The notes below the pieces were generated by a model. It had not been told where the DNA came from, did not search any database, and worked only from the letters and a program-made list of their open reading frames with translations. From assembly GCA_949358305.1 (NCBI GenBank), contig CASHSZ010000083.1, positions 1-27,500 on the forward strand: a stretch of 27,500 nucleotides of DNA. Reading direction: 5' to 3'. Both the position numbers and the translations under genes were made by a program. Position 1 is the first letter of the stretch. Every line of letters starts with the position of its first letter. Source of the stretch: Strigamia acuminata (Eukaryota; Arthropoda; Chilopoda; Geophilomorpha; Linotaeniidae). Of this stretch, positions 3,301 through 27,500 are shown piece after piece.

Positions 3301-3540
3301 TTCAATGTGTAGTGAGTAGTTTAAAAATTCTCAGGCCAACTTATGTTCCCGCCACCTATTGGATACTTGGTGCAGGTGTTCTCCACATTGTTCCAGCGGT
3401 ACAACAATGCCATTTGTTGCGGATTTATTGCTTTCCAGTGCGATTTTCGTACTAGCCACGTCATACGACCTTGGGCGAGCTCAAGTGTCTGGAAATTGGA
3501 TACACATCGCCGTTCCTTTCTGTCTGTCTTGTTGACCTGC
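3301..3540. other. Noncoding spacer, nothing recognised
   Basis: About 240 bases between the probable LTR and the satellite. I see no gene, RNA or repeat unit that I can name. It could include host flank of BEL element 1. Confidence 0.3.
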
Positions 3541-10100: not shown

Positions 10101-11474
10101 AAGATCTTAGACGATGCGCAAATGCCGCTAGTAAAGTGGGTCACCCCGAGTGAAGAGGTTTTCCGAAATCTACAAGAGGAAGGGTTCCACATGAGAAGTG
10201 ACAAGTTTGAAGACTTGGAATTCATCAAGATGTTAGGAATATTATGGAACGTACAAGAAGACGTCATGATGTTCAATATTCCCTCAGCAGAGAATACTCC
10301 GAGAACCAGAAGGGAGATGTTGTCGCTCTCGGCTTCCGTGTTTGATCCGTTAGGCTTAATTTCTCCAGTGGTTCTGCGGATGAAACTACTATTACGCGAA
10401 ATCTGTAGTCAATCGATAGGATGGGACGTACCGATTTCCGAAACAGAGCGCCAAGAAGTTGAAGATTGGTGCAAAGATATCCAAGAGCTGAAAGAGCTAA
10501 AGATCAAGAGATGGTTAGAGACCTATTCAAAGAGGGATATCACGCTAGAAGTATTTTGCGACGCAAGTCCAAAGGCATATGGATGCGCAATCTACATTTT
10601 GACTGATCAAGGGAAACGGACATTACTTCTGAGTAAATGTAGAATAGCGCCCTTGACCAAACTAACACTACCAAGGTTGGAATTAACTGCTGCGGTCATA
10701 GGGATTAGAATGTGTTCGTATGTGACGAAGAATTTCTTACCCGGATATCCAATCACCGCAGTACGTTATTACTCCGACTCCGAGATCACCCTTGCTTGGA
10801 TCAAGTCGACACGTAACCAGTGGAAGCCCTATGTTTCTAATCGTATTCAAGTGATAAATGAGAAATCAGAACAGTCGCAATGGTCTCATGTCCCCACAGC
10901 ATCGAATCCTGCGGACCTTTTGACTCGCCCGAGAAAAGCAAAGGAACTCCGGGAATGTCGTATCTGGTGGGAAGGCACGGAGGTCATTCCGTCGTCATCT
11001 TCAAACGAAGTAGAGATGCCTGAGGACGAGAAAAGAGTCATACCAGTCAATATTATTACTTCCGTTCAAAGGGATGGATTTAGAGAATTTGTGACCAAAT
11101 ACGATTCGTTAAAGAGACTCATCGGAGTCTATGCGTACATTCGTCGCTGGAGGACTCGTTCGTTCGGCGGGGTATACCTCGTGAGGAACGAGTTGGATAA
11201 AGCAGAAAGAGAACTCATTCGACGATCTCAGGAGATATATTTCGAAGATGATTTTGAAGCTGTAAGAGAAAAAAGAGATTTAGATAAGGGCTCCCCACTG
11301 AAAAATTTTGATCTATTCATTGATGAAGATGGGCTTCTACGCCTAAGAAGTCGTTTAACCTTTCCGCGGATTGGCTTCCGCGAAATCCGCATTTCGGGGG
11401 CGACTATTCTGGGGATTCCGGGTGGACCAAACTCTTCCGGAAAACGTCCGGGGTGGTGTTGGGAGTGTCAATAG
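7140..11474 (+). CDS. BEL/Pao Gag-Pol polyprotein, truncated before integrase, with a 39-codon foreign tail
   Basis: The start is placed at ATG 7140 (MSETKEDIRLM), giving 1444 residues. Order: a Gly/Thr-rich N-terminus (about residues 20-75); a DUF1759 Gag region (KLPKLELEKFSGD from about residue 200); three CCHC knuckles (CAFCNSNEHHNGSC, CFNCLHTGHQMRDC, CQHCGGRHHTTIC; about 424-490); an A17/DUF1758 protease whose active-site loop reads DPAS (Asp about 542) where DSGS is usual; RT with ADIKQAF and the catalytic IYMDDL (Tyr about 965); and RNase H with FCDASPKAYG (Asp about 1141) and YYSDSEITLAW. Together these would make virus-like particles and copy the RNA into cDNA. The last 39 codons, from 11358 (TFPRIGFRE...), are not BEL; they are read from the DNA inserted at TTAA. 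The integrase is missing, so the copy cannot complete its own integration. Confidence 0.92.
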   Translation: MSETKEDIRLMSAPTSRVTSPIPRTSAGRLTGHLTGSQAGFPLGQQTGPPPVLQTGPQTGTQAGLSAGHHTGHLTGPTKDEIRLQEAVWDTHTGGLENLLDESRDICDAGELEAIAASAEGKVTRMINGLNELKKLVDLKQYMNNVTRAEEVKDKMDLLRKRADVAMRSISRLGGTSIADTSANLTASGLNSSMVARRKNSKLPKLELEKFSGDVLHYRSFLGGFDTAVHNDPDLTETEKLQYLRASCTGEASALISSFPLTTGSYELARAELTRSYGAEDTQRVALIKSVKSAKPVKDLHPVKAVKSLLTQISSAVRLLAQLKVPVETSGMFLAPEILKKFPKKIVVRFYEKHGAKSDNLVTLLDFISDEVTNVERVEDALGSERQVKVDKTESTKESPRSSMATCVAIQQTRGTRKELPRHKCAFCNSNEHHNGSCKKLMDVAKKLEIIRKDKLCFNCLHTGHQMRDCSMKFSCQHCGGRHHTTICRKMLVKVDSGKEKSPGEATVSVSLVASDQLQLMVFTADLKIPGGKFHRVRGIIDPASHRSFIVKSLAQKLKLKKDGEVHVATQRFNDQTPKSTCHDVHHLKLKSRHDRKGLLVSALTTDCLPFVSGVVDPEAVRRIKGLGLELAEELPSQTNDIEILLGVDVWWEVFINGRKRLNKQCGLIKTIFGWIVSGAIGHQSLLPDANMLITNANWNTSPEYKELEKLWTLDSIGINPGEKTSDFVRDRFDKTATRLPNGRYEVSLPTNEKIGQLDQNWNLALNQLGSTLRRIDDNEDHKARYDKAMWEYVEQDHAEQVPKEERFLDKDTYYIPHHPIIREDRDTTKFRVVFNASSSKKGQYSLNDCLYPGPSLNPDIILVMIRFRLYCIPAIADIKQAFLQFSINPTYRNFLRFLWVAKDYFSKPYSWESLWENLVVLRMTVVPFGVNSSPFLLCAAIRKQAKLFIDVYPKEAEALDQGIYMDDLTSGGDGTQDTSEHCGLLRKILDDAQMPLVKWVTPSEEVFRNLQEEGFHMRSDKFEDLEFIKMLGILWNVQEDVMMFNIPSAENTPRTRREMLSLSASVFDPLGLISPVVLRMKLLLREICSQSIGWDVPISETERQEVEDWCKDIQELKELKIKRWLETYSKRDITLEVFCDASPKAYGCAIYILTDQGKRTLLLSKCRIAPLTKLTLPRLELTAAVIGIRMCSYVTKNFLPGYPITAVRYYSDSEITLAWIKSTRNQWKPYVSNRIQVINEKSEQSQWSHVPTASNPADLLTRPRKAKELRECRIWWEGTEVIPSSSSNEVEMPEDEKRVIPVNIITSVQRDGFREFVTKYDSLKRLIGVYAYIRRWRTRSFGGVYLVRNELDKAERELIRRSQEIYFEDDFEAVREKRDLDKGSPLKNFDLFIDEDGLLRLRSRLTFPRIGFREIRISGATILGIPGGPNSSGKRPGWCWECQ

Positions 11475-11700
11475 ACTGTTTTGTGTCAAGGTTGTCAATT
11501 TTCATGTGAGTATTGGAAGGTTCATTTCTGCACATTCTCATGTATTTTTTTTCACAGGAGCGACAAGGAGCGATGAAGCGGGATCGAGCGAGAGTGGGTA
11601 AAATAAACTGGTTTACGTCTCCAATGCGCGTTCAAGATGGAATACGAACTCGGAATCGACTCCAACACGCGTTCGCGTGACATACGGACGCATTCACGAC
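11359..11700 (+). other. Probable left terminal region of the piggyBac-type element
   Basis: It begins at the TTAA junction with a C+T and CCGCG-rich start, a 7-base hairpin (GCGGATT/AATCCGC) and three TGTCAA copies near 11465-11495. A good GT donor (catgtgagt, about 11502) and an acceptor (tttttttttcacag, ending about 11560) suggest a small intron, so a noncoding or very short exon may be transcribed here. No protein is recognised. It passes into the palindromic array near 11700. Confidence 0.35.
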
Positions 11701-12530
11701 CCAGATCAAAAAATGATCTCGTATTCGACTCGTTTTCGAGTCGAATGCAAATTTTGCCCTTCTTTGACGCGAAATCGTATTCGACTCGTTTTCGAGTCGA
11801 ATGCGAGTTTTGCCCTTCTTCAACGCGAAATCGTATTCGACTCGTTTTCGAGTCGAATGCGAATTTTGCCCTTTCTCAACGCGAAATCGTATTCGACTCG
11901 TTTTCGAGTCGAATGCGAGTTTTGCCCTTCTTCAACGCGAAATCGTATTCGACTCGTTTTCGAGTCGAATGCGAATTTTGCCCTTCTTCGACGCGAAATC
12001 GTATTCGACTCGTTTTCGAGTCGAATGCGAAATCGTATTCGACTCGTTTTCGAGTCGAATGCGAGTTTTGCCCTTCTTCAACGCGAAATCGTATTCGACT
12101 CGTTTTCGAGTCGAATGCGAATTTTGCCCTTCTTCGACGCGAAATCGTATTCGACTCGTTTTCGAGTCGAATGCGAAATCGTATTCGACTCGTTTTCGAG
12201 TCGAATGCGAGTTTTGCCCTTCTTCAACGCGAAATCGTATTCGACTCGTTTTCGAGTCGAATGCGAATTTTGCCCTTTCTCAACGCGAAATCGTATTCGA
12301 CTCGTTTTCGAGTCGAATGCGAGTTTTGCCCTTCTTCAACGCGAAATCGTATTCGACTCGTTTTCGAGTCGAATGCGAATTTTGCCCTTCTTCAACGCGA
12401 AATCGTATTCGACTCGTTTTCGAGTCGAATGCGAATTCGTATTCGACTCGTTTTCGAGTCGAATGCGAATTTTGCCCTTCTTCAACGCGAAATCGTATTC
12501 GATTCGCTTTCGAATCGTATACGAGATGGT
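11700..12530. repeat. Palindromic tandem array, left arm (56- and 34-base units)
   Basis: Each unit contains a 24-base palindrome with arms ATTCGACTCG and CGAGTCGAAT around a TTTT loop, followed by a linker tgcga[g/a]ttttgcccttctt. Copies start at about 11723, 11779, 11835, 11891, 11947, 12003, 12037, 12093, 12149, 12183, 12239, 12295, 12351, 12407 and 12441, with a variant at 12497. Spacing is 56 bases except for three 34-base units that skip the linker. The array is open in several frames only because the repeat has no stop codons; it is not taken as coding. Confidence 0.95.
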
Positions 12531-14240
12531 CGATTTTTGTTTCCCGGACTTTGATTTGTATTCGAGTTGTTACGAGTTCGTATTTTGATCGTATTCGTAT
12601 TCGAATCGAATTCGAATCGTATTCGAATCGAATACGAATCGAATTCGAGTCGTATTCGAGATGGTCGATGATTTCCACTCGCTCGTATACGCGTTGTATA
12701 CGAGCTCGTATTTTGATCGTAATCGTAAACGAATCGTTTACAAGTCGTATACAAGTCGTATACGACGTGTATACACCTCGTATACGAACGAAGTTTGTGA
12801 AAACACAATTTCCAAATAAGACGTATGTGACTACTATGTGTTTTCATGTCGTAGTAAGTGTCCGGTGGATTTTCCAAACTTCGTTCGTATACGAGGTGTA
12901 TACACGTCGTATACGACTTGTATACGACTTGTAAACGATTCGTTTACGATTACGATCAAAATACGAGCTCGTATACAACGCGTATACGAGCGAGTGGAAA
13001 TCATCGACCATCTCGAATGCGACTCGAATACGATTCGAATACATCTCGAATACATCTCGAATACGAGTCGTACGAGTCAAAGTCCGGGAACGGGTCATCG
13101 ACTATCTCGTATTCGAGTTGTTACGAGTTCGTATTTTGATCGTATTCGTATTCGAATCGAATTCGAATCGTATTCGAATCGAATACTAATCGAATTCGAG
13201 TCGTATTCGAGATGGTCGATGATTTCCACTCGCTCGTATACGCGTTGTATACGAGCTCGTATTTTGATCGTAATCGTAAACGAATCGTTTACAAGTCGTA
13301 TACAAGTCGTATACGACGTGTATACACCTCGTATACGAACGAAGTTTGTGAAAACACAATTTCCAAATAAGACGTATGTGACTACTATGTGTTTTCATGT
13401 CGTAGTAAGTGTCCGGTGGATTTTCCAAACTTCGTTCGTATACGAGGTGTATACACGTCGTATACGACTTGTATACGACTTGTAAACGATTCGTTTACGA
13501 TTACGATCAAAATACGAGCTCGTATACAACGCGTATACGAGCGAGTGGAAATCATCGACCATCTCGAATGCGACTCGAATACGATTCGAATACATCTCGA
13601 ATACATCTCGAATACGAGTCGTACGAGTCAAAGTCCGGGAACGGGTCATCGACTATCTCGTATTCGAGTTGTTACGAGTTCGTATTTTGATCGTATTCGT
13701 ATTCGAATCGAATTCGAATCGTATTCGAATCGAATACTAATCGAATTCGAGTCGTATTCGAGATGGTCGATGATTTCCACTCGCTCGTATACGCGTTGTA
13801 TACGAGCTCGTATTTTGATCGTAATCGTAAACGAATCGTTTACAAGTCGTATACAAGTCGTATACGACGTGTATACACCTCGTATACGAACGAAGTTTGT
13901 GAAAACACAATTTCCAAATAAGACGTATGTGACTACTATGTGTTTTCATGTCGTAGTAAGTGTCCGGTGGATTTTCCAAACTTCGTTCGTATACGAGGTG
14001 TATACACGTCGTATACGACTTGTATACGACTTGTAAACGATTCGTTTACGATTACGATCAAAATACGAGCTCGTATACAACGCGTATACGAGCGAGTGGA
14101 AATCATCGACCATCTCGAATACGACTCGAATTCGATTCGTATTCGATTCGAATACGATTCGAATTCGATTCGAATACGAATACGATCAAAATACGAACTC
14201 GTAACAACTCGAATACAAATCAAAGTCCGGGAAACAAAAA
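12531..14240. repeat. Core of the array: 551-base direct repeats built of nested short palindromes
   Basis: A 551-base unit repeats directly (equivalent points 12838, 13389, 13940). Each unit has an ~85-base ordinary spacer (about 12795-12880, 13346-13431, 13897-13982) flanked by inverted arms beginning aaacttcgttcgtatacg. The arms are almost entirely overlapping palindromic words such as TTCGAA, GTATAC, GAATTC, CGTTTACG and TCGA. The first two full units are nearly identical, implying recent duplication. Outer flanks (12540-12790 and 13985-14235) are mirror images of each other. Confidence 0.93.
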
Positions 14241-15225
14241 TCGACCATCTCGTATACGATTCGAAAGCGAATCGAATACGATTTCGCGTTGAAGAAGGGC
14301 AAAATTCGCATTCGACTCGAAAACGAGTCGAATACGAATTCGCATTCGACTCGAAAACGAGTCGAATACGATTTCGCGTTGAAGAAGGGCAAAATTCGCA
14401 TTCGACTCGAAAACGAGTCGAATACGATTTCGCGTTGAAGAAGGGCAAAACTCGCATTCGACTCGAAAACGAGTCGAATACGATTTCGCGTTGAGAAAGG
14501 GCAAAATTCGCATTCGACTCGAAAACGAGTCGAATACGATTTCGCGTTGAAGAAGGGCAAAACTCGCATTCGACTCGAAAACGAGTCGAATACGATTTCG
14601 CATTCGACTCGAAAACGAGTCGAATACGATTTCGCGTCGAAGAAGGGCAAAATTCGCATTCGACTCGAAAACGAGTCGAATACGATTTCGCGTTGAAGAA
14701 GGGCAAAACTCGCATTCGACTCGAAAACGAGTCGAATACGATTTCGCGTTGAGAAAGGGCAAAATTCGCATTCGACTCGAAAACGAGTCGAATACGATTT
14801 CGCGTTGAAGAAGGGCAAAACTCGTACTCGACTCGAAAACGAGTCGAATACGATTTCGCGTTGAAGAAGGGCAAAACTCGTACTCGACTCGAAAACGAGT
14901 CGAATACGATTTCGCGTTGAAGAAGGGCAAAACTCGTACTCGACTCGAAAGCGAGTCGAATACGATTTCGCGTTGAAGAAGGGCAAAACTCGTACTCGAC
15001 TCGAAAGCGAGTCGAATACGATTTCGCGTTGAAGAAGGGCAAAACTCGTACTCGACTCGAAAACGAGTCGAATACGATTTCGCGTTGAAGAAGGGCAAAA
15101 CTCGTACTCGACTCGAAAGCGAGTCGAATACGATTTCGCGTTGAAAAAGGGAAAAACTCGTACTCGACTAGAAAGCGAGTCGAATACGATTCCGCGTTGA
15201 AAAAGAGAAAAACTCGTACGCGATT
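14241..15225. repeat. Palindromic tandem array, right arm (inverted relative to left arm)
   Basis: The same 56/34-base units occur in reverse complement. Palindromes start at about 14310, 14344, 14400, 14456, 14512, 14568, 14602, 14658, 14714 and 14770. The order of 34- and 56-base steps and of linker variants mirrors the left arm from the centre outward. From about 14815 the units change to a subfamily with cgtactcgactcg and aaa[a/g]cgag, seven more copies to about 15190, which the left arm lacks. The last two carry aaaaagggaaaa or aaaaagagaaaa linkers and are the most degenerate. Confidence 0.95.
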
Positions 15226-15234
15226 CAGTGAAAC

Positions 15235-16530
15235 TAAATTTACATGTGCGCGTTGACGCGCGCGATTCGTGTGTTCTACGTGAGTAAATAGAGTGCGCGT
15301 CACATATGAATACAAAATGTCGACCATGCGTCGCCACGATGCCAGTGGACGAATTCTGCGAATTCGTGCAAACGCAGAAAGTTAAAAATATTCAAATTTG
15401 ACGCCCACGATGACACGTTCGTAGTAGACGCCTCCACAACTGCTTTTGAAAAGAATTTGATAAATGTTTGGAAATAATATTTAGGATTTTCTTTAATCAT
15501 ATCAGGAAACTGAAAACAGAAATAAAGTTTATACATTGGAAATTTTTTATAATAAAATTACGTATTAAACATTATATAGCGTGAGAATGGACACTTTGAT
15601 ATGAAAGCGAATATTTTCGAAATTAAAACAATTATTTTCAAAGTTAAAACGACTATTTTCGAGTATTGTTAATTCAAAACGACGTGCAGCATGGGAATAA
15701 AAAAAATTAATTGAGACGCGCTTATGACACGCGCTGCACAGCCTCACGAATCCTAGAGGCATCCACAACTATACGCGTCGGCCCTGACGCGGTCGTCTAG
15801 ACGAGCGCATCTGGACGCGCACAAAGCTAAGTTCACATGTGCGCGTCTAAACGCGCGCGTCAAGGCCGACGCGTATGGCTGAGGACGCACTTAGGATTCG
15901 CGAGGCTGTGCAGCGCATGTCACAAGCTCGCGTCAACCAATTTTTTGGTTCCCATGCAGCACAAAAACAAAAATTGTTAAGTTGCTTAAGAATTGATTTT
16001 TTTTGGTATTTCATTGTTGATTATTAATTTAAAGAATATTTAATTGTTTTTTAAAATGGGAAAAGTTGAAAATTTGGTGGGTTTTTGTGTTTGCTTGCTC
16101 GACGGGAAATTGCAATCTCCCCGGCCGCAGCAGGCGAGCATTGAGCGGCATGTAATTTCCACGCGCACCGTCGAAAGGATTGTATTTGTTTATGAACTCT
16201 TTTTTTCTTGTATTGTTTTTCGTGTATTGTTTTGACGTGAAAACAATTCATTTCAATAGAATGTGACTGTTTTCAATGTAAAAATCAATGATTTCACTGG
16301 AAAACAAAGGTGGCAACGAGTGGTCGCGCGCGTCAAAGTTGAATATTTTCAACTTTCGGCGTTCGCGCGATTTCGGGGAATTCGTCCACTTGCGGCGCGG
16401 CGACGCGCGCGGCGACGTATGGTCAACGTTTTGCATTCACATGTCGAACGCGCGAACTTAGCTTTTACACGCGTGTGTCACGCGATAGAAGACGCGTCGT
16501 CTACAAAACACACGTAAATAAATAAATAAA
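15235..16530. repeat. Foldback (nested inverted repeat) segment, MITE-like
   Basis: Two nested imperfect inverted repeats occur. The outer arms are about 15235-15440 and 16310-16520; for example agtggacgaattc at 15344-15356 pairs with gaattcgtccact at 16378-16390, and the tcgacc.tgcgtcgcc blocks also match. The inner arms are about 15680-15795 and 15855-15968; for example gctgcacagcct at 15733 pairs with aggctgtgcagc at 15903. A gcgcgt-rich motif with acatgtgcgcgt recurs at 15245, 15835 and 16440. I recognise no protein in it. It resembles foldback or MITE-type nonautonomous elements, family unknown. Confidence 0.7.
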
Positions 16531-16675
16531 TATTTTTGGTGGTTAACCCGTGTGTCTTTCCATGGAAAAAAAAAGAGAAGAGTTTTCTCGTCGTAAGATT
16601 TCTCTCAAAAATCTCTAAAACACGATAGAAAGCAGTCCAACAATCGAATTTGGCGCCATCGTACGAAGCGATTTG

Positions 16676-16706
16676 ATTGGCCAACAATGAGCAGAGTCGT
16701 GATTGG
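16676..16706 (-). promoter_or_regulatory. Two inverted CCAAT boxes upstream of the acidic coiled-coil gene
   Basis: ATTGG occurs at 16676-16680 (with a CCAA overlap) and at 16702-16706, both within 75 bases of the ATG at 16750. Paired CCAAT boxes close to a start are typical NF-Y promoter elements in TATA-less animal promoters. Transcription would then start within a few dozen bases of the ATG. Confidence 0.4.
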
Positions 16707-16749
16707 TCTTGTCTATGCCTCCTGGATGCAGAACTAACCACCCGACATC

Positions 16750-18184
16750 ATGGACGCCTTAGTACCACAATTGATAGAAGATTTTAATGTAATTGGGGTA
16801 ATTTTTATCACGAATTTTTGTCAAACGTACAGTCCCGAGTGAGTGAGTGAGCGAATGAGTGAATGAGTGAGCGAGTGAGCGAGGTGATGCGTGTGACTAA
16901 CGTCCATTGGACGTTTCGTCCGTCGTTAACAGAGATCGAAACTGAGTTTACGTCCCATTCGTTTTCCTTTGTTCAGGTTTTATTCATTTATATAACCTCC
17001 ATCTTCCTCACTTTTTTTTTTTTTTTTTTTTTTTTTCTTTTTTTACAGGTCGCTACGGAGAAAAACAGAGAGATTGGAGGGGATGGGGAAGAGGAAACGA
17101 CGACTACATCGAATTTGTCGTCCGCTGTGCCATTGACCGACACGCCGTCAAAAATGGATCCTATTCCATCTAAACGCGCTTGTTTAGTGGGTGATGGAGA
17201 GATGGAAGACCCGGCGCAAGTTAACGAGGTACTGATTCGTTCGTTTGCTTTATTTGTCATCAATCTATTTATTTGTTCATCCGTTTTTTTTTTTTTTGTT
17301 TTTTTTTTTTTTTTTATCCGTTTGTCTTTTTTCTCTCTTTCAAGTCGTGTCGAGGAGAGGCGTCGCCACTGCTGCCACCGCCGCAGCGCGAGAAAAAGAC
17401 GGTGGCGGGGGCGGTGAAAAAAGCCAGGCAGATCGCGTGGACTCTAGCAAAGAGATTCACGGGGACAACCAAACGAATTGAGAGGATCGAAGAGTACATG
17501 GGTTGGAGGTGGCGTGGCAGGAAGGAGATGATAGGTCGGTTGAGATCAATGGAGAAGAAGTTGAAGCGGATGGAAAGCGACCTGGACTGGGTCGATACAG
17601 ATGTGTATGATATGGAAGTGGAGGTGGAGATAACTGAGGAGGATAGAGAGGTGGACGTGGATGGAGTGGAAGCGGAAGTTGAAGTGGCTATGGGTGAAGT
17701 GGAGGTGGCGGAGGCGAGATCAGGGGAACGGGAGCAGCGGGAGCGGGATGATGTCGAACCGGTCGCCGAGAAAACGCGCGATGGTGGCATTCTTTTATCG
17801 TCTATTGCGGCGGACACGGTCGAATCCGTGTTAAAGAAATTGTCTGGCAAGGTAAGAATAAAACGCACGATGACGCGCGCGACCACTTTTCGACCTTTCA
17901 TGTACATTCATTTTTGTTTGATAATTTTCAGTGTGTCGATTTGATGGCGTTGACTTCGATCAAGTCTGTCGAATCGCTGTACAAGTTTCAGCAACGGGTC
18001 TGCCAACCGGTAAACATGTTTGGTGCGCATCCACCTTTTTTGATTGTTTCTCTTATTTTTTCTTTCTTTTCAGAGGGTAATTGATGATGACGACGACGGT
18101 GACGATGTTGATAGTGACGATGGTGATAGTGACGATGGTGATAGTGACGATGGTGAAGATGATGACGATGACAATGTCGACTAG
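16750..18184 (+). CDS. Uncharacterised coiled-coil protein with acidic tail, five exons
   Basis: Exons: 16750-16797 (or donor at 16788), 17049-17228, 17345-17851, 17932-18009, 18074-18184. All introns are GT..AG and phase 0, and the joined frame ends at TAG 18182-18184, giving 307 residues (304 with the alternative donor). I know no family for it. Visible parts: N-terminus MDALVPQLIEDF; a Thr/Ser-rich acidic stretch; a basic segment (about residues 93-120, KKARQIAWTLAKRF); a charged region likely to form a coiled coil (about 120-175, RIERIEEYMGW ... EKKLKRMESDL); a Glu/Val-rich stretch; a short exon with two Cys (CVDLMAL...QRVCQP); and an Asp tail built on DSDDG repeats. There is no signal peptide or membrane helix. 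The mixture suggests a nuclear or chromatin-binding protein, an inference from composition only. CCAAT boxes lie upstream and poly(A) signals at 18337. Confidence 0.65.
16834..16885. repeat. (GAGT)n / (GAGC)n microsatellite in intron 1
   Basis: An imperfect tetranucleotide repeat of gagt, gagc and gaat follows the first exon of the 16750 gene, within its first intron. Confidence 0.8.
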
Positions 18185-18195
18185 ACAGATCATTC

Positions 18196-18290
18196 GAATT
18201 TTTTATTTTATTTTATTTTATTTTATTTTATTTTATTTTATTTTATTTTATTTTATTTTATTTTATTTTATTTAATTTTATTTTATTTTT
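18196..18290. repeat. (TTTTA)n microsatellite in the 3' UTR
   Basis: A near-perfect run of about 18 TTTTA pentamers begins directly after the stop codon of the 16750 gene and lies before its poly(A) signals. Confidence 0.95.
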
Positions 18291-18336
18291 TTCTTTTTCT
18301 TTATTTCTTCTTTCGTGTGTTGTTATGTTTTAATTA

Positions 18337-18346
18337 AATAAATAAA
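18337..18346 (+). terminator. Overlapping poly(A) signals of the acidic coiled-coil gene
   Basis: AATAAA occurs at 18337-18342 and again at 18341-18346, about 155 bases after the stop codon at 18184. This is the only good candidate 3' end for that gene. Confidence 0.6.
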
Positions 18347-18595
18347 TAGTAGTTGTCGTACAATTTCATCATCAAACAAGTGGTTTAACATCGTTGTTAT
18401 TACTGTTTGTTTGTTAAATTATTTGTCGTGTTCGGTTCGGCTTTGTGGAACAATCATGATTGTGTGAAAAGTTTGGGACACCTGTCGTTGATTTCGTGTA
18501 TCACCTGTTGTCTGGTGTGCTTTTTAGCCACTGACTGTCGGGTCCCGTTGGCAGGACTGAGACCGAATTGGCGTTCTATTTTTCTCTCCTTTCAG

Positions 18596-18714
18596 GTCGG
18601 GAGATGGACAAACGCCATGCGGAACGGCAGTTGCGATCGGTCGTCCATCGCGGTATTCTCGCGCTAGTTTTATGCTTGTATTGGACGCGCACACATTGCA
18701 AAAATAAAAGATAA
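18596..18714 (+). CDS. Possible terminal exon or small ORF (36 codons)
   Basis: A strong acceptor (tttctctcctttcag, ending 18595) is followed by a frame with ATG at 18604 (MDKRHAERQLRSVVHRGILA...) that ends at TAA 18712-18714, with an AATAAA overlapping at 18703. It holds a short hydrophobic stretch (ILALVLCLYW) after a basic start. No upstream exon with a matching donor could be established. It may be the last exon of an unseen transcript or chance. Confidence 0.2.
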
Positions 18715-20150
18715 ATTAGCGTACTGTATCGAAACCTTGGTCCGGCTTTTGAGGAATTTTTTTTTTTCTTTCTCGTCAACAAAATATACGCGCGATCACA
18801 CGTAATAACGTCAAAAAATGTTTAATAAACGCCCAAAAACCGTGCATTGGAGTCGTGAGCGCATTCCGTATTGCAGCGCGACCACGCGCGGATGCACATT
18901 GGAGTCGTGGACGACTTTGCGTCGCAATGTGATCGCGGGGAACGGGCTACACGCACGCTCGAATATGATGCGCGCGTCGGCAAACAATATTATCTCGTGA
19001 TCGCGCGTCGTGAACCTACCGGGCGGATGTGACGCGTGAATAACCCCAGGATCAAGTTTCACGAAAACCTGATTTCGAAGAAAAAAACAACATACCGGTC
19101 AGATGTGACGCGTGGATAACCCCAGGGTCAGGTTTCACGAAAACCTGATTTCGAGGAAAAAATAACCTACCAGGCGGATGTGACGCATGGATAACCCCAG
19201 GATCAGGTTTCACGAAAACCTGATTTCAAGGAAAAAACGAAAAGACGCACAAAGACTACAGGATAAAAATGATACGTAGAGAGAAGAAAATAGAAATTGA
19301 TTCCCCGATTCGTGAAATTAATTTCACATCGTGTACTCCAACCATTAATTGCATTGTCGTATTAGGTGTTGTGTGAAACGAAGATCGTAAACGTTTCGAT
19401 CGGTTTACGATTTAAATTTCATCTCTCGGTGCGCGTCGCATCGTCCTAAATGACGCGAATTCATATCACCGCGTTCGCCAGATTCACGAGCACTTCCAAA
19501 CCGTTCGTTTCGGACCTTCGCGGGGATCCGGAGGGTTTCGGTGTCTGTCTGGTCTCATGTCCCAGACTCGCTGCGTTGCGCAGTCACCGGCCAACCAAAT
19601 GTGTCGGTTAGACGCGTCGCAATGAATAGGGGCAGACATGGATGTGTGTTAAAAAATAAACAATAGTTGGCTGCTGCGGATAACCTCGACCACTCGTCTC
19701 AATCGTTCGCTCAACCGACAGGGGCGCACCACTGCAGATTTAAATTTTCAGATTTCAATGGGAGACCTTGTCTCACACAAGGTACGGAATCTCCTTTGTG
19801 CCATCCTCGATTCAATCGTTAAAGACAGCATGCTCCTCGACCAGGACTGACTAATAGAATCAACTGACATTTTACCCACCGCGTTTGATCGCGCGCGTGC
19901 TTTTCTTCTCCCTGCCCATCCGTCCGCTTGTTTATTCTATCGTTTGGGCGATGTTGCGGAACAAAACGTCTACCTTTTTTATCGCCTTTACACGACCTTT
20001 CTTTATTACCCTCCTTCTTGGAATGTGCGTGGCCCCTAGCAATTACGTAACCAAACAGGGTGCTCACGTTGTTCTCTCTTTTGGTCTAGATAATCCCATT
20101 TTCTCCACCGCCACTCAAACACGCCCACATAAAAAATCCAAAGATTTGTT
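18715..20150. other. Noncoding stretch with a short tandem repeat; no gene recognised
   Basis: The sequence is rich in CpG and gcgcg like the rest of the segment after 11358. Apart from the 76-base repeat at 19015-19240 and a doubled gcattggagtcgtg-type word (about 18844 and 18895), I see nothing to name. Open frames are short and present on both strands, without convincing splice partners. Confidence 0.35.
19015..19240. repeat. 76-base tandem repeat, three copies, each with a hairpin
   Basis: Units start at about 19015, 19091 and 19167. Each carries gatgtgacgc.tg.ataacccc followed by the hairpin ATCAGGTTT-cacga-AAACCTGAT. Copy 1 has one base change in the left arm (atcaagttt) and copy 2 a gtcagg start, both compatible with wobble pairing on one strand. 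Function unknown. Confidence 0.88.
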
Positions 20151-20790
20151 TATTTTATTTTATTTTTCTATTTAACAAAACAGACAAACAAAACAAATCG
20201 AAAATTAGAGAGAAAATCTGAATAAAAATTGAATAAAGATTGAAACAAAAATTGAATAAAAATCGAATGAAAATTGTAATAGAAATTGAATAAAAAAATT
20301 GGAGTAAAAATTGGAATGAAAATAGAAAAAAATTGACAAATCCAACGACGCATTCGATTGCGGTGGCCACCGAGGTGGCCGCCGCCACTGCACGCAAAGC
20401 TTCTCGGATGGTTTCGGGGCTCCTCCATCTCCATCTCCCTGCACGCCACCGTGGTCGATTCCGCCACCGTGGTCGATTCCGCCACCATACCGACCGCCAA
20501 GGCAATCGTCCAAAAACGAGTTTAGGTCCTCCAAACATAAACGCGAAGCGGATGGCCGCGACAATCCTGTCCGACCAAATCCGCGCGCGATGCCACTGCC
20601 TCTACACCGGCGGTCTCGGCGCAAGACAGTTGGTAGAAGAAGAGCGAAATAAAAAATTAACATTTGAATTAATAATTGGTCAAGACGCTGGGCCAGTCAC
20701 TTCGGTCGCGCGCGTAGTAACAACGCGCCGGGTACACGCGTCTAGCCGAGGTCTTCTGTTTACCCATTTGGAAAGAAAGAGAAAATGAAT
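20150..20790. other. AT-rich degenerate repeat and GC-rich block of unclear coding status
   Basis: 20205-20335 is a degenerate run of aaaattgaat-like words. 20335-20650 is GC-rich, with an 18-base duplication (ccaccgtggtcgattccg, about 20447-20482), and is open in several frames on both strands. One plus-strand frame gives a Pro/Arg-rich chain ending at 20651. Equal openness in many frames and the lack of clear splice sites keep me from calling a gene. Confidence 0.3.
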
Positions 20791-21434
20791 AAACGTAATT
20801 TAATGAGAAGCAAATACTTGTAGATGCAAATAAAACGTAGGGGAGAGGGGGGGGGGGGGGGGGGAAGAAAAACCCAAACCAAACAAAACCAAACAGAGTT
20901 TGAAACTGCACGGCGTGATTAAGTCTGTCTCGACGTGCCAAAAATGCCAAAACAATGACAAAGTATGTGTTAAATGAATGCCGCTTCTTTCTTTGTTTGT
21001 TTCTTCATTCGTCTGTTCGTTGTGTGAAAATAAAACAAATTGGTCAATTACACACGTCGAGTTTGGTCCAGAAAACTCACACAACGCAATGAAGACCACC
21101 TCGCATGCTTGTTAAAAATTAAAAAGTGATGGCGATGCACGGGGTCTCCCGCCCGTGCGCGTGTGCACATGCTAATGTAATGTACGCACGCGCACGGGCG
21201 GGCGGTCGAGTGAATGCGTGAATCGTCTCTCCACTCGCTCGTTTGTTTGAAAATAGACACTCGCACTACTTACAGTACCAAAATCCCTCCCCCCACCTAT
21301 TCACGTTGTCGCAGTTACGTCAAGGTATCACGACGCGCAACAAAAAAAGGAAGAAAGATTTTTATCTATTGCGCCACACTCCATTTCGTGAAACACGCGT
21401 GTGTATCGATACGTTCGAGCGTTTTATCTGCAAG
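20791..21434 (+). other. Upstream region and probable 5' untranslated exon of the zinc-finger gene
   Basis: A poly-G run of about 19 lies at 20838-20862. A GC-rich hairpin is at 21148-21202. The stretch ends in a good donor (tctgcaag/gtgaga, exon end 21434), which would splice to the acceptor at 21830. The open frame before the donor joins the next exon out of frame, so I treat this as 5' untranslated. Its start is not defined. Confidence 0.35.
21148..21202. repeat. Perfect 16-base GC-rich inverted repeat (hairpin)
   Basis: CCCGCCCGTGCGCGTG (21148-21163) and CACGCGCACGGGCGGG (21187-21202) are exact reverse complements around a 23-base spacer, which is itself partly self-complementary (tgcacat...atgtacg). 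It lies about 230 bases before the donor of the presumed 5' exon of the zinc-finger gene. Confidence 0.9.
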
Positions 21435-21480
21435 GTGAGAAAATAGTCGGTTTCCCCGACCACCATATTTTAATTTAGCC

Positions 21481-21780
21481 GACTGACTGACTGACTGACT
21501 GACTGACTGACTGACAGATAGATAGATAGATAGATAGATAGATGGATAGACAGGGAAACAAACAAACGACTAAACAGGCGGTCGGGGATAAACGAGTGAA
21601 AACACGATGCGAGCACGGGCGGGGAAACCCCGTATTGTAACACAATAACCGCCATTGTTTACCGATTTGTTCGCTCATTTATTCACTTGACAATAACAAT
21701 AATAATAATAATAATAGTAATACCTGTAAAAGCAATAATAGTGATAATAATAGTAATAATAATAATAATAGTAATAGAAA
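21481..21780. repeat. Microsatellites (GACT)n, (GATA)n and (AAT)n in the first intron
   Basis: A (GACT) run at about 21481-21513 adjoins a (GATA) run at 21515-21543. Further on, 21692-21780 is AAT-rich with GTAAT and GTGAT variants. All lie between the presumed 5' exon and the first coding exon of the zinc-finger gene. Confidence 0.9.
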
Positions 21781-21850
21781 GAGAGAGATACGCGCATACG
21801 CTTATTGACGAAATGTGAATTTCTGTACAGGTGTGCGGACTGGAAAAAAA

Positions 21851-24800
21851 ATGGAGAAACAGAAAAAGAAAAAAAACCAGAAGGTAGCGAGGAAGAAGTT
21901 AAAGGGAACGAAGAAATGGAATACGACCGACAGCCAGAGATCGGATATAGATGGTCAACCGATAGATAGTCAGGTGTCGGTGTACTCGGATAGCCAGTTG
22001 GTCGACGAGATGGATATCCAGCACAGAGATGACGACGACAGCGATTCCGAAACGAGAACACAAAGAAGAAGCAACGACGAAGATGCCCGGAAAAATCGGA
22101 CGAAAAAAAGCGTCAAGAAGACGCGCGTTTTGACGAAAAAGGACGACGAGACGATAAGATCCTCGACGGAGAATGGTGCCGAGAAGGTGCAAATTTTGAT
22201 GGAAGTGGGCGACAAATTGGAGAAAACCACAACCAAAAATGATGAAGCCGAGGCAACGAAAATTTTGACAAGAGAAGATGACGAGTGGGCGAATCTGAAC
22301 AAAAGTCTTATTTTATTCGAGGACAACGAGGCACCCGATGCAGACAAACTACAAGAAAAACAAGAACGGTGAGTAGAAACGCAAATTGTTTGATTTGAAT
22401 CGCACCGAAGAAGTTATCGCGCGGTTTACATCTATAGCGCGCGCATATAACGCGCGGCTCAAAGCGTGCGAATTGCGATCCGTTTTTTTTTTTTTTTTTT
22501 GGCGCTCGATGCTAGTAACTCGCGATGATTTATTTGTTATTCTATTTAATCGTTTATTTATTTTTTTATCCCCCCCCCCCCCCCCCCCCCCACTAGACTC
22601 GATGACGGCAGACTCACGTCGACGATGCCGAGAACAGAGGATGTAACGGTTCTAAAAACACGCGTAGATTTCTTGTACCAGCAAGAAGAGGGACGTGGGA
22701 CTAAATACACACAAATTGCGGAAGAATTACGCACCCTTAATCAAAGGTTGAGTGTAATCGAAGAAAGACTCACGACCGCCAGTACATCGCAACACATGAC
22801 CGCAAGTACATCGCAACGCGTGACCACTAGTGCGTCGCAACAGGCTATTTGGTCGTCCTACGACCACCTTAAGGTAACAACGACGACAATCAATCAGCTC
22901 ATTCGTTCGTTCGTTTGTTCGTTCAATCATCTTTCTCGTTTAGGACAAACCTGTCATCGATACGAGAAATGGGGTGTGTTGGTTGTGTCCCGACTCAAAC
23001 AAAGTCCCGAAGGGCCCCAAAGCCGACATATGTAATCACTGGCGGCATATGCACAACGTTGGAAAAATCAAACCGGCCAGGGAGTTGTTGCGCAATCACG
23101 TTGGCAACTTTGAGAACTTTTGTCGGGTATTTCCTAGCGCGTACGCGCGCGATTCGTTTGTTCGCCTTTATTTACAATGTAAGCTGCGTAGCTCGGACAT
23201 AACACCGTCCGGACAACTACGTGGTCCGGACAATTTTGTCCGGGCCCGGGCCCAACCAATAAGGAGCGATGCTAGATTTACTCTTTGGTTTGGACGACTT
23301 CCCTTTCCGAATTCCGGGCAAAGCGGTGCATCCCATATAAGGAAAAAATTACCGTGTGGTTCGGACAAAAATAAAAAATGTCGATTTTCCAATGAAATAA
23401 ATTAGAAAAAAAAACAAAAACAAAAACACTAAAATAAAAAAAAATAAATAAATAAAAAAAGGTGTACACACCCTACAGAACGAACATCGCCTGGACTGGA
23501 CACATTTCTGGGCCCCATCCTACATCCGGGCTACATAGCTTACACTGTATTTCTTTATTTATTTGTTTGTTTATTTACTTATTTATTAATTTAATTTATT
23601 TATTTATTTATTTATTTTTTTTTTTAATTTATTTTTTTTTTTTTTTTTTTCCCCCATTTTCATTGATGTGATCATCTCAATCGTTCATCTCTTCTTCAAC
23701 AGGCACTGATGTTAACGAGGAAGAAGGCGGACGACTGTCCTTTATGCAACACACGATCAGAAAATATGCAATATCATTTGCGAGAGACACACAGATTCGA
23801 CGTACTGCCCACATTTCTGAAGCTAAGTGGGAAGGGCACGAAGAGAGGAGGTGATACCCCTCCCCACCACAGTGGTGCTCGACAACAGCAAGGGAACGAG
23901 AAGAAGAAGAAGGGTGACGAGGTGAGGGAAAAACAATTCGGTTTATTTGTCATTGACATTTTCTCTCTCTAGGCAATCGTGGTAACACCAAAGACCATGA
24001 AGTTGTTGCGAGAAGGATACACGCAATGGGAGAAGAACGTGAGTGTCTCGCCCCAAGGACCTGCCCGGGCAACTAGACTGATCGATTGTCCGTCTGTTTG
24101 TTTGTTTGTTTTATTTCAGCAACCCATCGATTTGAATCGACAAGCTCGGGCCCTAGAGTTTTTGTTCGGGAAGACACGACCCGACGACGATGACAGTAGC
24201 GACATCGAAGACGACGAAGACGAAGGCGAAGACGAAGACGAAGGCGAAGGCGAAGGCGATGGAAACGGTGGAAACGACGGCGGTCGCGTCGGACATGGTC
24301 GCGGCACCGCTCCTGGACGCGGGATGAAGCGCGATTGCGGTCTAATCGCTAGCATTGCGAAGAGCAAACGCGAACGTGAGGCTAAACAAATACGTGGACG
24401 CGGGCCGACTCCCACTACAAAGTCGTCGCCATCGTCGTCGTCGTCGTCGTCGCCGGACAATGACAAACCGGATCCGTTCAAGGTAAAGGAAAGGGATCCT
24501 TTCCGCTGCTCTCATTAATTTGGTGGTTCGTGTTTGACTGAAATTTCAGACAGCCTTGTATCGCGAGAAACGAGACATCACGGGAAGCAAATGCGACAGT
24601 GTTTACTGCGCGGAGTCGACTAGTCCGCGACTGAGTTGCAAATCGTGTTCCTCTTCGGTACACGAAGAATGTGTGGGGCGGACATGGACCAACCGGAAAA
24701 GCTACACCAAGTTCTTTTGTAGCGGTTGTCGTAAAATTCGTCCCGCTCCTATCACGAAACTGCGGTGAGTGTTTTCTTTCATTTTATTCTGTAATTAACT

Positions 24801-25410
24801 ATAATTTTTTTGACCACACCGTAGTCTAATTCGCTTGTTCATTATTTTACACAGGTACTCCACTTACTCGATTGAGCAAAATCTCACCAAACACTTCAAC
24901 ATCTGCTTCCAACACGTCGCAGACGTACTCAATGGAAAGGTTAAAAGTTGGCGGATGAACCTCTTTGACAAAGGTGCCCCGAAGCGATCGTCCATGTCGA
25001 CCAACCGACACGATTTACTGATCCAAGACGAAGAACTGGTACAGACTATAGATTTTTTATTATTTTTATATGTTTTTGTTTGTTTGTTTGTTTGTTTGTT
25101 TGTTTGTTTGTTCGTTCTTTGCTTTCGTTCGATTGAATTTTGCTCATTTACATTTCAGTGCAAACGTTTTGCTCATTCTATTATAAAGAAAATAAGGACG
25201 GAGCTGCCCATAAAAACACAGTATGCGCAGACGTGGGGACCAGACGGAATTGAAACATTCATGACAGCGGTCGCAATTCCCGAATTTCTGACCCGATTGA
25301 TCTCTAAGATCGAGGACATCGACCGGGACCACGCAGACTTTTTCCTGGCTAATGTGGATCGCCCGCGGTATTTTGTTGACGATTTGAAAGACACGCGTGC
25401 CAGTCCGTGA
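21851..25410 (+). CDS. Uncharacterised nuclear-type protein with two C2H2-like fingers and a PHD-like finger, nine coding exons
   Basis: Coding exons: 21851-22368 (exon begins 21831), 22597-22873, 22944-23126, 23703-23921, 23973-24038, 24120-24482, 24550-24764, 24855-25038, 25159-25410. All introns are GT..AG; most are phase 0 and two are phase 2. The joined length of 2277 bases is exactly 758 codons plus TGA. Order: Lys-rich basic N-terminus, then mixed acidic/basic (1-172); a short coiled coil (RTLNQRLSVIEERL) and TASTSQ repeats (about 195-255); C2H2-like fingers in exon 3 (from about 277) and exon 4 (from about 338); an Asp/Glu-Gly hinge and Ser run (about 440-535); a PHD-like finger (about 557-603); and a C-terminal domain (615-758). 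The ATG at 21851 is the first in frame after the acceptor. Chromatin or DNA binding is inferred. The C-terminus faintly recalls the RTC4-like domain (GPDGIETFMT ... IPEFLTRLI), unverified. Confidence 0.75.
22944..23126 (+). other. C2H2-like zinc finger 1 (exon 3 of the zinc-finger gene)
   Basis: The exon encodes CWLC, a Lys/Pro-rich spacer of about 12 residues, then CNHWRHMH, giving two Cys and closely spaced His as in a long-spacer C2H2 finger. A conserved-looking helix-like tail (KPARELLRNHVGNFENFCR) follows. The third Cys makes other zinc arrangements possible. Confidence 0.5.
23127..23702. other. Long intron with promoter-like sites and a short inverted repeat
   Basis: This 576-base intron of the zinc-finger gene is far longer than most of its neighbours. 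It holds GTCCGGACAA twice (about 23209 and 23225) and an 8-base inverted repeat CCGGACAA-TT-TTGTCCGG, then a CCAAT (about 23254) and a TATATAAGG-like catataagg (about 23333). It may contain a small MITE-type insertion. An internal promoter for a shorter product starting at the ATG at 23709 is possible but unproved. Confidence 0.35.
23736..23795 (+). other. C2H2-like zinc finger 2 (exon 4 of the zinc-finger gene)
   Basis: DDCPLCNTRSENMQYHLRETH has Cys-x2-Cys and His-x4-His spacing close to a classic C2H2 finger. Together with the finger in exon 3 it forms a pair suited to nucleic-acid binding. Confidence 0.6.
24592..24735 (+). other. PHD-like zinc finger (exon 7 of the zinc-finger gene)
   Basis: The Cys4-His-Cys3 order is visible: CDSVYC, then CKSC, then HEEC, then CSGC at the end. 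A PHD finger with an aromatic two residues before the last CxxC pair (here FFCSGC) is typical. PHD fingers commonly read histone H3 tails. The loop between HEEC and CSGC is of normal length (17 residues). Confidence 0.65.
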
Positions 25411-25467
25411 AACGGCACAGTTTGTCAGATTTTCTTTTCTATTTTTTATTTTTCATTTGTGGTTTCG

Positions 25468-25473
25468 AATAAA
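25468..25473 (+). terminator. Poly(A) signal of the zinc-finger gene
   Basis: AATAAA lies 58 bases after the stop codon at 25408-25410 in a T-rich 3' UTR. Confidence 0.65.
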
Positions 25474-26501
25474 CAAACACGCACCCCGTTTCGCATTGTT
25501 TTTCTTTCGTTTATTTATTTATCCATGCGTTTAACAAAATTTTCAGCACATAAATTGTTGTTGTGTAAAATTGCACACGCACGCGCGGTTGATTATATAC
25601 ACGCGCGTCCGATTTCCATACTCGCCTCTCGACCGCGCGAGCCTTGTGAAAGCCCTGTGGTTTCCCATCATCCCTCGGTTCATCCTACACGCGTTCTGCA
25701 CGACGACGGCGTGGCAGCGAGTAGTTGGTCAACTGCCAAGTACTTTTCCAGCGAGAAAAAGAGGAAGAAAATTGAATCAACCGGTCTATCAACCGGCCTA
25801 TCCATCGAATTAAGCAGGTATGTCGACGAGCGAGCGCCATGTTCGCGGACGGACACAGACGGGAACCACAAGCGGTGTAATTGTCACCATCTTGCTCCCA
25901 CAGATATTTCGAGAGAAATATTTGACGAAAATAGCGTGGGTAGATATTTTCACCAGTTGCATTCAAAAGCTAACATAATTTGTATTTTACTCTAAATTTA
26001 AATGAAGATTGGCATCATTTACCATTTAAACCCGTGATGAAATTTAAAACGCATCGGTATTTCAAGGGGGAAGGGAGGATAACACGTGTGCCATTGCTTC
26101 CCCTTTAATCACGTTCCCAGCACGTGACAACGATCACGTTCATCCGCGCTGCACACGCGCACCAACCCGCGCGCCATTTAATGACCGCGCGTTATTTGCA
26201 AACCCGAACCCCCTATTATCAGATACCCGTGTCCAACCCTTCTCGGAGGTTTGTTAAAAGATCTACTCGACCGACTCTGGTAAATCGCGAAGAAAGGTGC
26301 ACCAAATGTTGTCGCAATAATGCATATACATATCGTGGGAATATCCTGCATCCTATTTTCCCTGAAATACCAATGCAAATAGCCACCCGCGCTATTTCCA
26401 CTGCAAAATTTTCTCGTTCGTCCGTACTTACTTTACTTTACTTTACTTTACTTTTTTTTTGTTTTATTTTTTGTTTTTTTGTTTTGTTTTGTTTTGCCTA
26501 G
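25474..26501 (+). other. Upstream region and 5' untranslated part of the piggyBac transposase gene
   Basis: No convincing coding region. A good donor (aagcag/gtatgt, exon end 25817) could close a 5' untranslated exon that joins the acceptor at 26501. A (CTTTA)n tract (about 26425-26452) and T-rich sequence lead into that acceptor (ttttgttttgcctag). Short frames on both strands here are not supported by other evidence. Confidence 0.35.
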
Positions 26502-26505
26502 GTCC

Positions 26506-27500
26506 ATGACGGACGGTTTTCCAAAAACGCCCAACGACACGCGCGTATGGGCCGCCACGACGACGCGGTACCGACAGGACGTCGGATTCGACGGCGAAAC
26601 ACCCGGCTATCGCGGCCGATGCGTGGCTACCAGCTCGGAATTCGACTATTTCGAGGAACTCTTCGGCGAGGCGGCCCGCTTCACCGTGACGGCGACGAAC
26701 CGGGCCATTCGGAGAGAGGCGAAGCAGGAGAAAGAAGTGGGAAGAACGCGAGTACAGGTGTTGGGAAAAGTTGACGCACACGTTGCACACGTCGTTCACG
26801 GGGGTTCTCAGACGCGCTTTTGGTTGATTGTTCGTATAATATACATGTTTTTCGTTTTAGACGCGTTCGATGCAACGACCACGAGGTCCGAGAACTAGAC
26901 AAAGAACGTTGGTCGCCGTGGCTTGCGGTAGTGGCGCTGGAGCACCCGGACCACAACGCAGTGTTTTGAGAGTGTGTATCACCGCGGCCGACAGAAGGGC
27001 AGCCGAGCTGGCCGCCGGGCGACAGCCCCGACTTCCGTCTCGATCGCAACACCCGCCACAACCGAGAGGGACAGCGACAAGGGCGCGCGCGCGGGTCCGC
27101 CCTCTAACGCTCGATGAGTTTTATGTATATCTAGGGATCCACGTCTTGGCCGGCTACAACAAACAACCCGAATTGCGACACTACTGGTCGAGCAGCAACG
27201 TCGGCGATCTCGGTGCACCGGCCGTTGGGCGAGCCATGACACACAAGAGGTTTCAGGAGATTTCGCGGTACCTTCATTACGGCACGCAACCGTCCTACCA
27301 ACGGTTGCACGTTACCGGCTCTGCACGCGGCCCCGATGGCGGCAGCACAACGGCGGAAAGGGTGTCATTTTTGAAAGAACGCGAACAGGACGACCGCGCG
27401 ATGAAAGTTCGCTTGTTCGCCGACCTGGTCAACAAACGCTTCCGCGCATGTCGGCAACCAAGGACGACGCTCTGCATTGACGAGTCGATGATCGCCTTCC
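26506..27500 (+). CDS. piggyBac-superfamily transposase, N-terminal half, two exons (3' partial)
   Basis: Exon 1 (from acceptor 26501, ATG 26506) ends at 26757; a 103-base GT..AG intron follows, and exon 2 runs in frame from 26861 to the window end. Exon 1 carries the typical N-terminal motif (FDYFEELFG ... TATNRAIRRE). Exon 2 continues with LTLDEFYVYLGIHVLAGY, RHYWSS, the MTHKRFQEISRYLHY block and LCIDESMIAF, whose Asp (codon 27479-27481) is the first catalytic carboxylate of the DDE_Tnp_1_7 fold. The enzyme would excise and insert DNA at TTAA. The remaining catalytic residues and the C-terminal Cys-rich domain lie beyond the window. Oddity: about 80 Arg/Pro/Ala-rich residues (26861-27100) separate the N-terminal motif from the LTLDEF block, longer than usual. 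No stops or frameshifts are seen, so the gene may be active. It is the likely mobiliser of the whole segment. Confidence 0.88.

Follow-up and report, generated by a model that had tools for sequence, protein, structure and literature searches.

The stretch of DNA analysed here, referred to as the window, comprises the first 27,500 bp (C94:1-27500) of the 71,621 bp contig C94 in the 237.5 Mb, 157-contig genome assembly of Strigamia acuminata. Its right-hand part, 11359..27500 on the forward strand (16,142 bp), is the left 28% of a giant element that extends over C94:11359-68530 and has a total length of 57,172 bp. The element encodes a piggyBac-superfamily transposase (26506..27500, forward strand) and, beyond the window, a thymidine kinase (TK; C94:55620-56177, reverse strand). 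Its extent was read from the left and right ends, the flanks, the length and co-linear copies identified with five markers. A giant cargo-carrying piggyBac had been predicted from the window sequence, and sharp repeated termini, an internal piggyBac transposase and co-linear content across several copies bear this out.

Ends, targets and copies of the element

The region to the left of the element, 7092..11354 (forward strand), is an open reading frame (ORF) of a Bel/Pao long terminal repeat (LTR) retrotransposon, which is cut by the element and represents its target, not a part of it; the open frame continues to 11474. The last 409 bp of this ORF before the junction are present in five other copies with 96–100% identity. 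In all three intact Bel/Pao copies that were read, the frame runs through a single TTAA located exactly at the junction. Since the intact copies cross one TTAA at this place, the TTAA at 11355..11358 is the target 4-mer and the element begins with base 11359. The left end predicted at 11355 was therefore correct, the exact border lying behind the TTAA.

The 367 bp following position 11358 were used as the left-end query, and the best 40 of 545 first-look candidates were scored, so that the counts obtained are lower bounds. The left end is sharp: at least 44 matches, the query locus included, all span query positions 1–367 at 99–100% identity. Eight of them come from the contigs C92, C91 and C48, where the left end is repeated in tandem. 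The period of this tandem duplication, as seen in C92 (L047, C92:16893-17353) and also in C91 and C48, is 382 bp. Outside 11359 the sequence varies from copy to copy, and among 24 left flanks there is one pair that is alike over 40 bp. The right end was searched with C94:67900-69500 as query (best 40 of 1193 candidates scored). It is equally sharp, as all 39 non-self matches among the 40 listed end at query positions 634–642, and in 20 right flanks compared divergence begins after ...CATAGGG. Beyond the window the copies remain co-linear up to C94:68530, and a right end within or close to the window was rejected for this reason. The following sequence, C94:68531-71621, was considered as a further element or as a duplication within the element. 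This was also rejected, as it is flank, a fragment of another copy of the element that begins at position 23969 of that copy. The original prediction had given the size as more than 16 kb. The element is giant as claimed, but its end lies outside the window and its length is 3.5 times 16 kb. Separate piggyBac termini near 26 kb, which would have spoken against a giant element, were not seen: 38 of the 40 matches listed (self included) span at least 1499 of the 1501 bases of 26000-27500.

The 4-mer adjoining the element is NTAN in all 24 left and all 25 right flanks read; the frequency of TA in the left flanks is about 0.066 per position. TTAA occurs in 4 of the 24 left and 11 of the 25 right flanks and is the commonest 4-mer overall (15 of 49), with ATAT being more frequent on the left side (6 against 4). 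The preference for TTAA that is a trait of the piggyBac superfamily is thus present, the target being otherwise relaxed to NTAN. For 10 of 46 flanks tested, the loci fetched include the target in uninterrupted form, with a single target 4-mer. Sequences interrupted by the insertions include a retrotransposon, satellite DNA and further copies of the element itself. Four element flanks (C5:12977, C71, C27 and C31) sit inside satellite units of a 140 bp type at TTAA, CTAA or TTAG, and the right flanks at C71, C27 and C31 are the same kind of satellite. A tandem array of the 140 bp satellite is also found in the window to the left of the element (3405-4785).

Read inward, the element starts with CCTT at the left terminus (11359..11396, forward strand) and with CCCT at the right. 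Both agree with CCYT, with which piggyBac termini begin according to PMC5601938. A 16 bp motif is repeated exactly in direct orientation at bases 19–34 from the left and 14–29 from the right terminus. In a shuffle test, none of 2000 replicates reached the direct-orientation score and 34 of 2000 reached the inverted-orientation score. A head-to-tail junction, in which a right end and a left end are separated by 54 bp, was read in C154 (L043, C154:43240-43390). The 54 bp spacer is also present at C1:66533 (L059), and a variant of it at C1:60398 (L051). By coordinates, the same spacing of right end to left end occurs at C46:9680-9728.

For the reconstruction of copies, five markers (left end, transposase, a marker at 49.5 kb, TK and right end) were chained from the matches listed, plus two added right ends. 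This search for other copies sharing both termini and gene content yielded 118 chains, five of which carry all five markers in order. Two chains lack the transposase marker only, two the right end only and eight the left end only. The seven two-ended copies have a span of 54–69 kb from the first to the last marker. Some copies are internally inverted or truncated. The ends are also present on the chromosome-sized contigs C1, C3, C5, C9 and C12. Over 26000-27500, which includes both coding and non-coding sequence, at least 19 matches, counting the query locus, show 100% identity and the same score. This identity over 1501 bp points to a very recent expansion. When 10 contig ends were sampled, the start of C1 and the end of C8 read (TTAGG)n, the kind of telomere repeat typical of arthropods, and one further end reads N.

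Transposase and cargo genes

The transposase gene starts at 26506, approximately 15 kb inside the element as predicted, with exon 1 at 26506-26757; the window also contains part of exon 2 (26861-27520). The gene in C94 itself was read as far as 27500; the full model of six exons was read on a copy in C1 (L025) that is 100% identical to C94 over 26000-27500, and all its introns are GT-AG. Residues 159–526 of the model match PF13843 (DDE_Tnp_1_7) with E 3.1e-56, and the window part alone matches with E 1.4e-19, which confirms the predicted transposase. In the PDB, just two entries match at E <= 0.01, piggyBat (9c0f, 2.1e-18) and one named "Transposase" (6x67, 7.1e-17), which we take to be piggyBac. 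The motifs CIDES, ACDNR and WVDV align with Asp residues of piggyBat 9c0f, and these three are presumably the catalytic triad. Towards the C terminus, inspection by eye shows a stretch rich in Cys and His, where the alignment is too weak to count. A 155-aa stretch of the transposase has 111 matches in the genome. Of these, 46 are at least 98% identical (three are partial), and none of the 46 contains an internal stop. For piggyBac transposases, four conserved Asp are named in PMC5601938.

Between the left end and the transposase the original prediction had listed an inverted array, a foldback repeat, coiled-coil-like ORFs and a zinc-finger gene, all of which were found. The array (11719..15223) consists of inverted 56 bp units around repeats spaced 551 bp, and its length varies between copies. 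It is followed by a diverged inverted repeat (15303..16445) with arms of about 140 bp at approximately 15.30–15.44 and 16.30–16.44 kb, about 1 kb apart, recognised through translated similarity on opposite strands. The acidic, charged ORFs at 16863..17944 (forward strand) look like coiled coils by eye and are perhaps exons of one gene; the single one tested against Pfam, 17225-17941, gave no match better than E 0.02. A highly charged 187-aa ORF at 21809..22372 (forward strand) matches no Pfam family at E <= 1.

The zinc-finger gene (22625..25410, forward strand) consists of eight exons (22625-22873, 22944-23126, 23703-23921, 23973-24038, 24120-24482, 24550-24764, 24855-25038 and 25159-25410) that form one open frame of 576 aa, with all introns being GT-AG. 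By eye, two Cys/His fingers can be recognised in the protein, as well as an acidic stretch. Its weak matches to PHD_2 (E 3.2e-4) and an RTC4-like end (E 0.015) are both under the Pfam cut-off. In comparison with a 95.7% identical copy, the only two exonic indels are of 3 bp each, both in exon 5, and the indels in introns 4, 6 and 7 are of 16, 22 and 8 bp. This difference in size between exonic and intronic indels is as expected for a gene kept in frame.

In the part of the element beyond the window, two mutually similar genes lie on the reverse strand at approximately C94:36.1–36.5 and 62.9–63.3 kb (E 1e-4 and 0.011). By eye only, they are similar to the window zinc-finger gene in their Cys/His pattern. 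Much of the right third is taken up by long, diverged repeats that appear not to code for protein (C94:49274-49718/51118-51586 and 57.2–68 kb). Similarities between ORFs at 43.6–46, 49–51.6 and 57–68 kb were considered as gene families and rejected, as they occur in a large number of frames, which suggests non-coding repeats. A 163-aa ORF at approximately C94:49.9–50.4 kb looked retropepsin-like; this was not confirmed, with Pfam giving nothing at E <= 1.

Outside the array, 324 ORFs of at least 70 aa were considered. After 62 low-complexity ORFs had been left out, the other 262 (130 and 132) were scanned with Pfam. No viral hallmark (capsid, polymerase, helicase, packaging ATPase or viral protease) was detected in these 262 ORFs at E <= 0.01, although short exons could hide one. 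Within the same scope and with the same limit for short exons, there was no herpesvirus core gene family, and none of the Polinton/Maverick PolB, retroviral-type integrase and capsid genes. The predicted lack of a recognisable herpesvirus-like gene therefore holds at the Pfam level for the 262 ORFs. Besides the transposase, the TK and PHD (1e-4), weak Pfam matches were obtained to HSP90 (5e-5), a Borrelia lipoprotein (2e-4), phage Gp5_trimer_C (4.5e-4) and others; these are taken for chance matches of low-complexity composition. No match below 0.001 to PHROGs was found across 130 ORFs. A search of IMG/VR gave no relative of the transposase stretch, and the TK relatives there share only 30–34% identity.

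Thymidine kinases and a second family

The product of the TK gene matches PF00265 over the whole profile with E 1.2e-52. Among PDB entries it scores 154 bits with the cytosolic TK 1xbt and 146 bits with 2j87, which we assume to be the vaccinia TK. The gene is present at 99–100% identity in at least 60 places (best 150 of 201 candidates scored). In 55 of these it is of full length, and none has an internal stop.

The same genome contains a second family of related elements, family 2, whose transposases are about 72% identical to those of the element described above (family 1). This comparison includes 60 matches, some of them partial; three weak short ones were dropped. The 13 matches to family-2 TKs are about 79% identical to the element TK. 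Twelve of the 13 lie 3.4–19.5 kb from a family-2 transposase, and the two genes are oriented towards each other, like those of family 1. The single family-2 copy that was read, in C34, has a coiled-coil gene placed after its transposase and before the TK, also as in family 1. The products of this first coiled-coil gene share 37% identity between the families over 73 aa (blastp) and 41% over 228 aa in a codon alignment that includes repeats. The family-2 gene (L101, C34:22067-29415) holds a long Pro-Glu dipeptide repeat. The distance from the same transposase exon to the TK is 7.8 kb in the C34 copy compared with 28.6 kb in C94.

The ratio of non-synonymous to synonymous substitution rates (dN/dS) between the families is 0.10–0.13 for the TK, 0.11–0.19 for the transposase exons and 0.36–0.51 for the first coiled-coil gene; these values are rough, with synonymous sites near saturation and YN00 failing for several pairs. 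Purifying selection on the TK is nevertheless clear. The conserved order and orientation, together with the between-family dN/dS, argue that the transposase and the TK have travelled together since before the families split. The core kept in both families consists of the transposase, the first coiled-coil gene and the TK. It is in the large family that the zinc-finger/PHD genes, the long non-coding repeats and the inverted array were observed.

Two further kinds of TK were found in the genome. A Bel/Pao family carries a TK domain inside its frame, which is mostly 995–1013 aa long (L078, C5:12588600-12591400). This TK is about 51% identical to the element TK and is found in at least 72 places at 50–52%. 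The L078 frame shares 44% identity over 171 aa with the Bel/Pao ORF in the window. The capture of a TK by an LTR retrotransposon is unusual. The other kind, 56–57% identical to the element TK, occurs in frames of 221–239 aa in five places (C3:1819599, C5:11756496, C5:11273330, C13:7714643 and C13:1193779).

Nature of the element and its relatives

What the DNA shows directly is that the ends are discrete, the targets are NTAN, the transposase gene is open, the cargo is co-linear and the copies are numerous and near-identical. With a probability of about 0.88, the element is a 57 kb DNA transposon that is moved by its own piggyBac-superfamily transposase, with the cargo forming one unit and the TK being part of the conserved core. 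The transposase would recognise both CCYT termini (C94:11359 and 68530) and excise the whole 57 kb, so that the cargo between the ends would move as a single unit. Insertion would take place at NTAN, preferably TTAA, in a cut-and-paste reaction presumably catalyzed by the encoded transposase. A gain of copies could occur through template repair of the donor site or through moving ahead of the replication fork. Because dozens of copies are near-identical, the sequence suggests that the element is active now or was so very recently.

Several observations weigh against this assignment. The terminal inverted repeat of 12–19 bp that belongs to the piggyBac rule, as stated in PMC5601938, is absent, with 6 of 13 bases being identical. 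The termini are atypical for piggyBac, and the assignment to the superfamily is by the transposase only. At the place aligned with what we presume to be the position of the fourth conserved Asp, the element has Asn, as does family 2. The left and right 4-mers are equal in one of the seven two-ended copies, that in C3 (TTAA/TTAA). In C94, C42 and C154, in two C1 copies and in one C5 copy they are unequal. If the observed 4-mers were paired at random, 0.92 agreements would be expected among seven, so the ends look randomly paired and no target duplication is evident. Three predicted partner junctions were searched for and none was found, in a search run without a positive control. The C3 copy (C3:2316004-2370885) has ends of 100% and a TK of 99% identity, together with a transposase stretch of 87–90% that contains a TGA. 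An old age, as its degenerate transposase might imply, was rejected in view of the ends and the TK, and it is at best a mosaic of young and diverged parts. The only copy with equal 4-mers is thus not clearly old, which lowers our confidence slightly. Of the 118 chains, 64 are single markers (29 left ends, 13 TKs, 11 transposases, 10 right ends and one mid marker), and the chains counted neither here nor above are shorter runs; this is partly because the chaining drew only on the matches listed. In family 2, no TK of that family lies near 48 of the 60 transposase matches, among the matches listed. The second coiled-coil gene, which lies beside the TK, shows 113 bp at 73% between the families, half of it A-rich, and the protein comparison was negative; its homology between the families is tentative.

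Misjoined or collapsed assembly is likely across 57 kb of near-identical sequence and could account for the unequal 4-mers. In two of the stretches fetched, one on C8 and one on C5, gaps of 200 N lie next to element sequence. An alternative explanation is transposition that uses the ends of two neighbouring copies, for which the junctions of right end, 54 bp and left end in C154 and, by coordinates, in C46 speak.

As to the role of the TK, it may aid the copying of the element by thymidine salvage where deoxythymidine triphosphate (dTTP) is short, a suggestion drawn from the selection on the gene. It is possible, but less likely than not, that the TK is a working core gene of a giant piggyBac lineage, which would use its own nucleotide salvage to copy 57 kb of DNA in dTTP-poor cells, possibly via an episomal or tandem-forming stage. 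The Bel/Pao family with a TK would represent the same solution in the same genome. That the element is real but carries the TK and its remaining cargo as passengers of no use to it, since piggyBac tolerates large cargo, is rather unlikely. The 48 family-2 transposase matches without a TK nearby among the matches listed would fit such passengers, and the copies are too young to reveal decay within the family. However, the between-family dN/dS of the TK, at about 0.1, is like that of the transposase, the order of the two genes is kept for 12 of 13 family-2 TKs, and a TK is also present within a Bel/Pao polyprotein of the same genome.

Teratorn and Teratorn-like elements occur in teleost fish, and Teratorn is described by Inoue et al. 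2017 (PMC5601938) and in a 2023 review (PMC10175614) as a giant piggyBac of about 180 kb that consists largely of an alloherpesvirus genome. By analogy, the element could be an unrecognised, diverged DNA virus or virus-like replicon that integrates by means of a piggyBac transposase, its TK, coiled-coil and zinc-finger genes being viral and the array an origin; we consider this improbable. Its size and gene richness would suit a virus, and the head-to-tail junctions with 54 bp between right and left end are such as concatemers could give. Large DNA viruses also often carry a TK. Against this stand the lack of any viral hallmark family in the 262 ORFs scanned, the GT-AG introns of the genes, the IMG/VR results for the transposase stretch and the TK, and the higher score of the TK with the cytosolic enzyme than with 2j87. 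Finally, host DNA (a segmental duplication or an extra chromosome) that contains a piggyBac by chance, with the copies being assembly duplicates, would agree with the many near-identical copies on small contigs, the inversions or missing parts in some of them and the mostly unequal 4-mers, but it is very improbable and already contradicted by the end structure, as base-exact ends occur in differing contexts, including C1, C3, C5, C9 and C12, and cut a retrotransposon, a satellite and other element copies, with no separate piggyBac termini near 26 kb.

As a probable transposon, the element can be compared with known systems. Canonical piggyBac and piggyBat elements are a few kb long and contain little beyond the transposase gene. 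The element shares with them the transposase family, the aligned Asp positions and the TTAA-type target, but its target is relaxed to NTAN and its terminal inverted repeat is poor. Polinton/Maverick elements are likewise large multi-gene DNA transposons; they are defined by a retrovirus-like integrase, PolB and capsid genes, unlike the element, in which these genes were not found in the ORFs scanned. Fungal Starships use a tyrosine-recombinase captain, whereas the element uses a piggyBac transposase. In being a giant cargo-carrying eukaryotic transposon it is similar to the Starships (PMC11623301, PMC12289983). The closest parallel is Teratorn. There, too, a transposase of the piggyBac superfamily and CCYT termini go with a giant interior rich in genes, copies are numerous within one genome and TTAA is preferred. 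In contrast to Teratorn with its approximately 180 kb, the element has 57 kb and intron-bearing genes, and the ORFs scanned gave no hallmark family of herpesviruses or other viruses; its cargo includes a TK and zinc-finger and coiled-coil genes, and its host is an arthropod instead of a teleost fish. A 2019 review of giant transposons names Teratorn as a piggyBac case (PMC6431247). In the open-access literature, judged by titles and abstract openings, no TK-carrying piggyBac, giant arthropod piggyBac or TK-carrying Bel/Pao was recognised. The original prediction had spoken of a new type of transposon. This is slightly too strong, since Teratorn is already a giant piggyBac, from which the element differs in host group, cargo and lack of recognised viral genes. 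We therefore regard the element as a giant piggyBac lineage with a TK cargo and no recognised virus, which is of a known kind and new in its cargo and host group.

If this assignment is true, a cut-and-paste transposon can mobilise 57 kb together with a selected metabolic gene, and does so in an arthropod, not in a fish. It would make testable whether transposons, besides viruses, gain from a nucleotide supply of their own, and whether giant piggyBac elements carry genes between animals.

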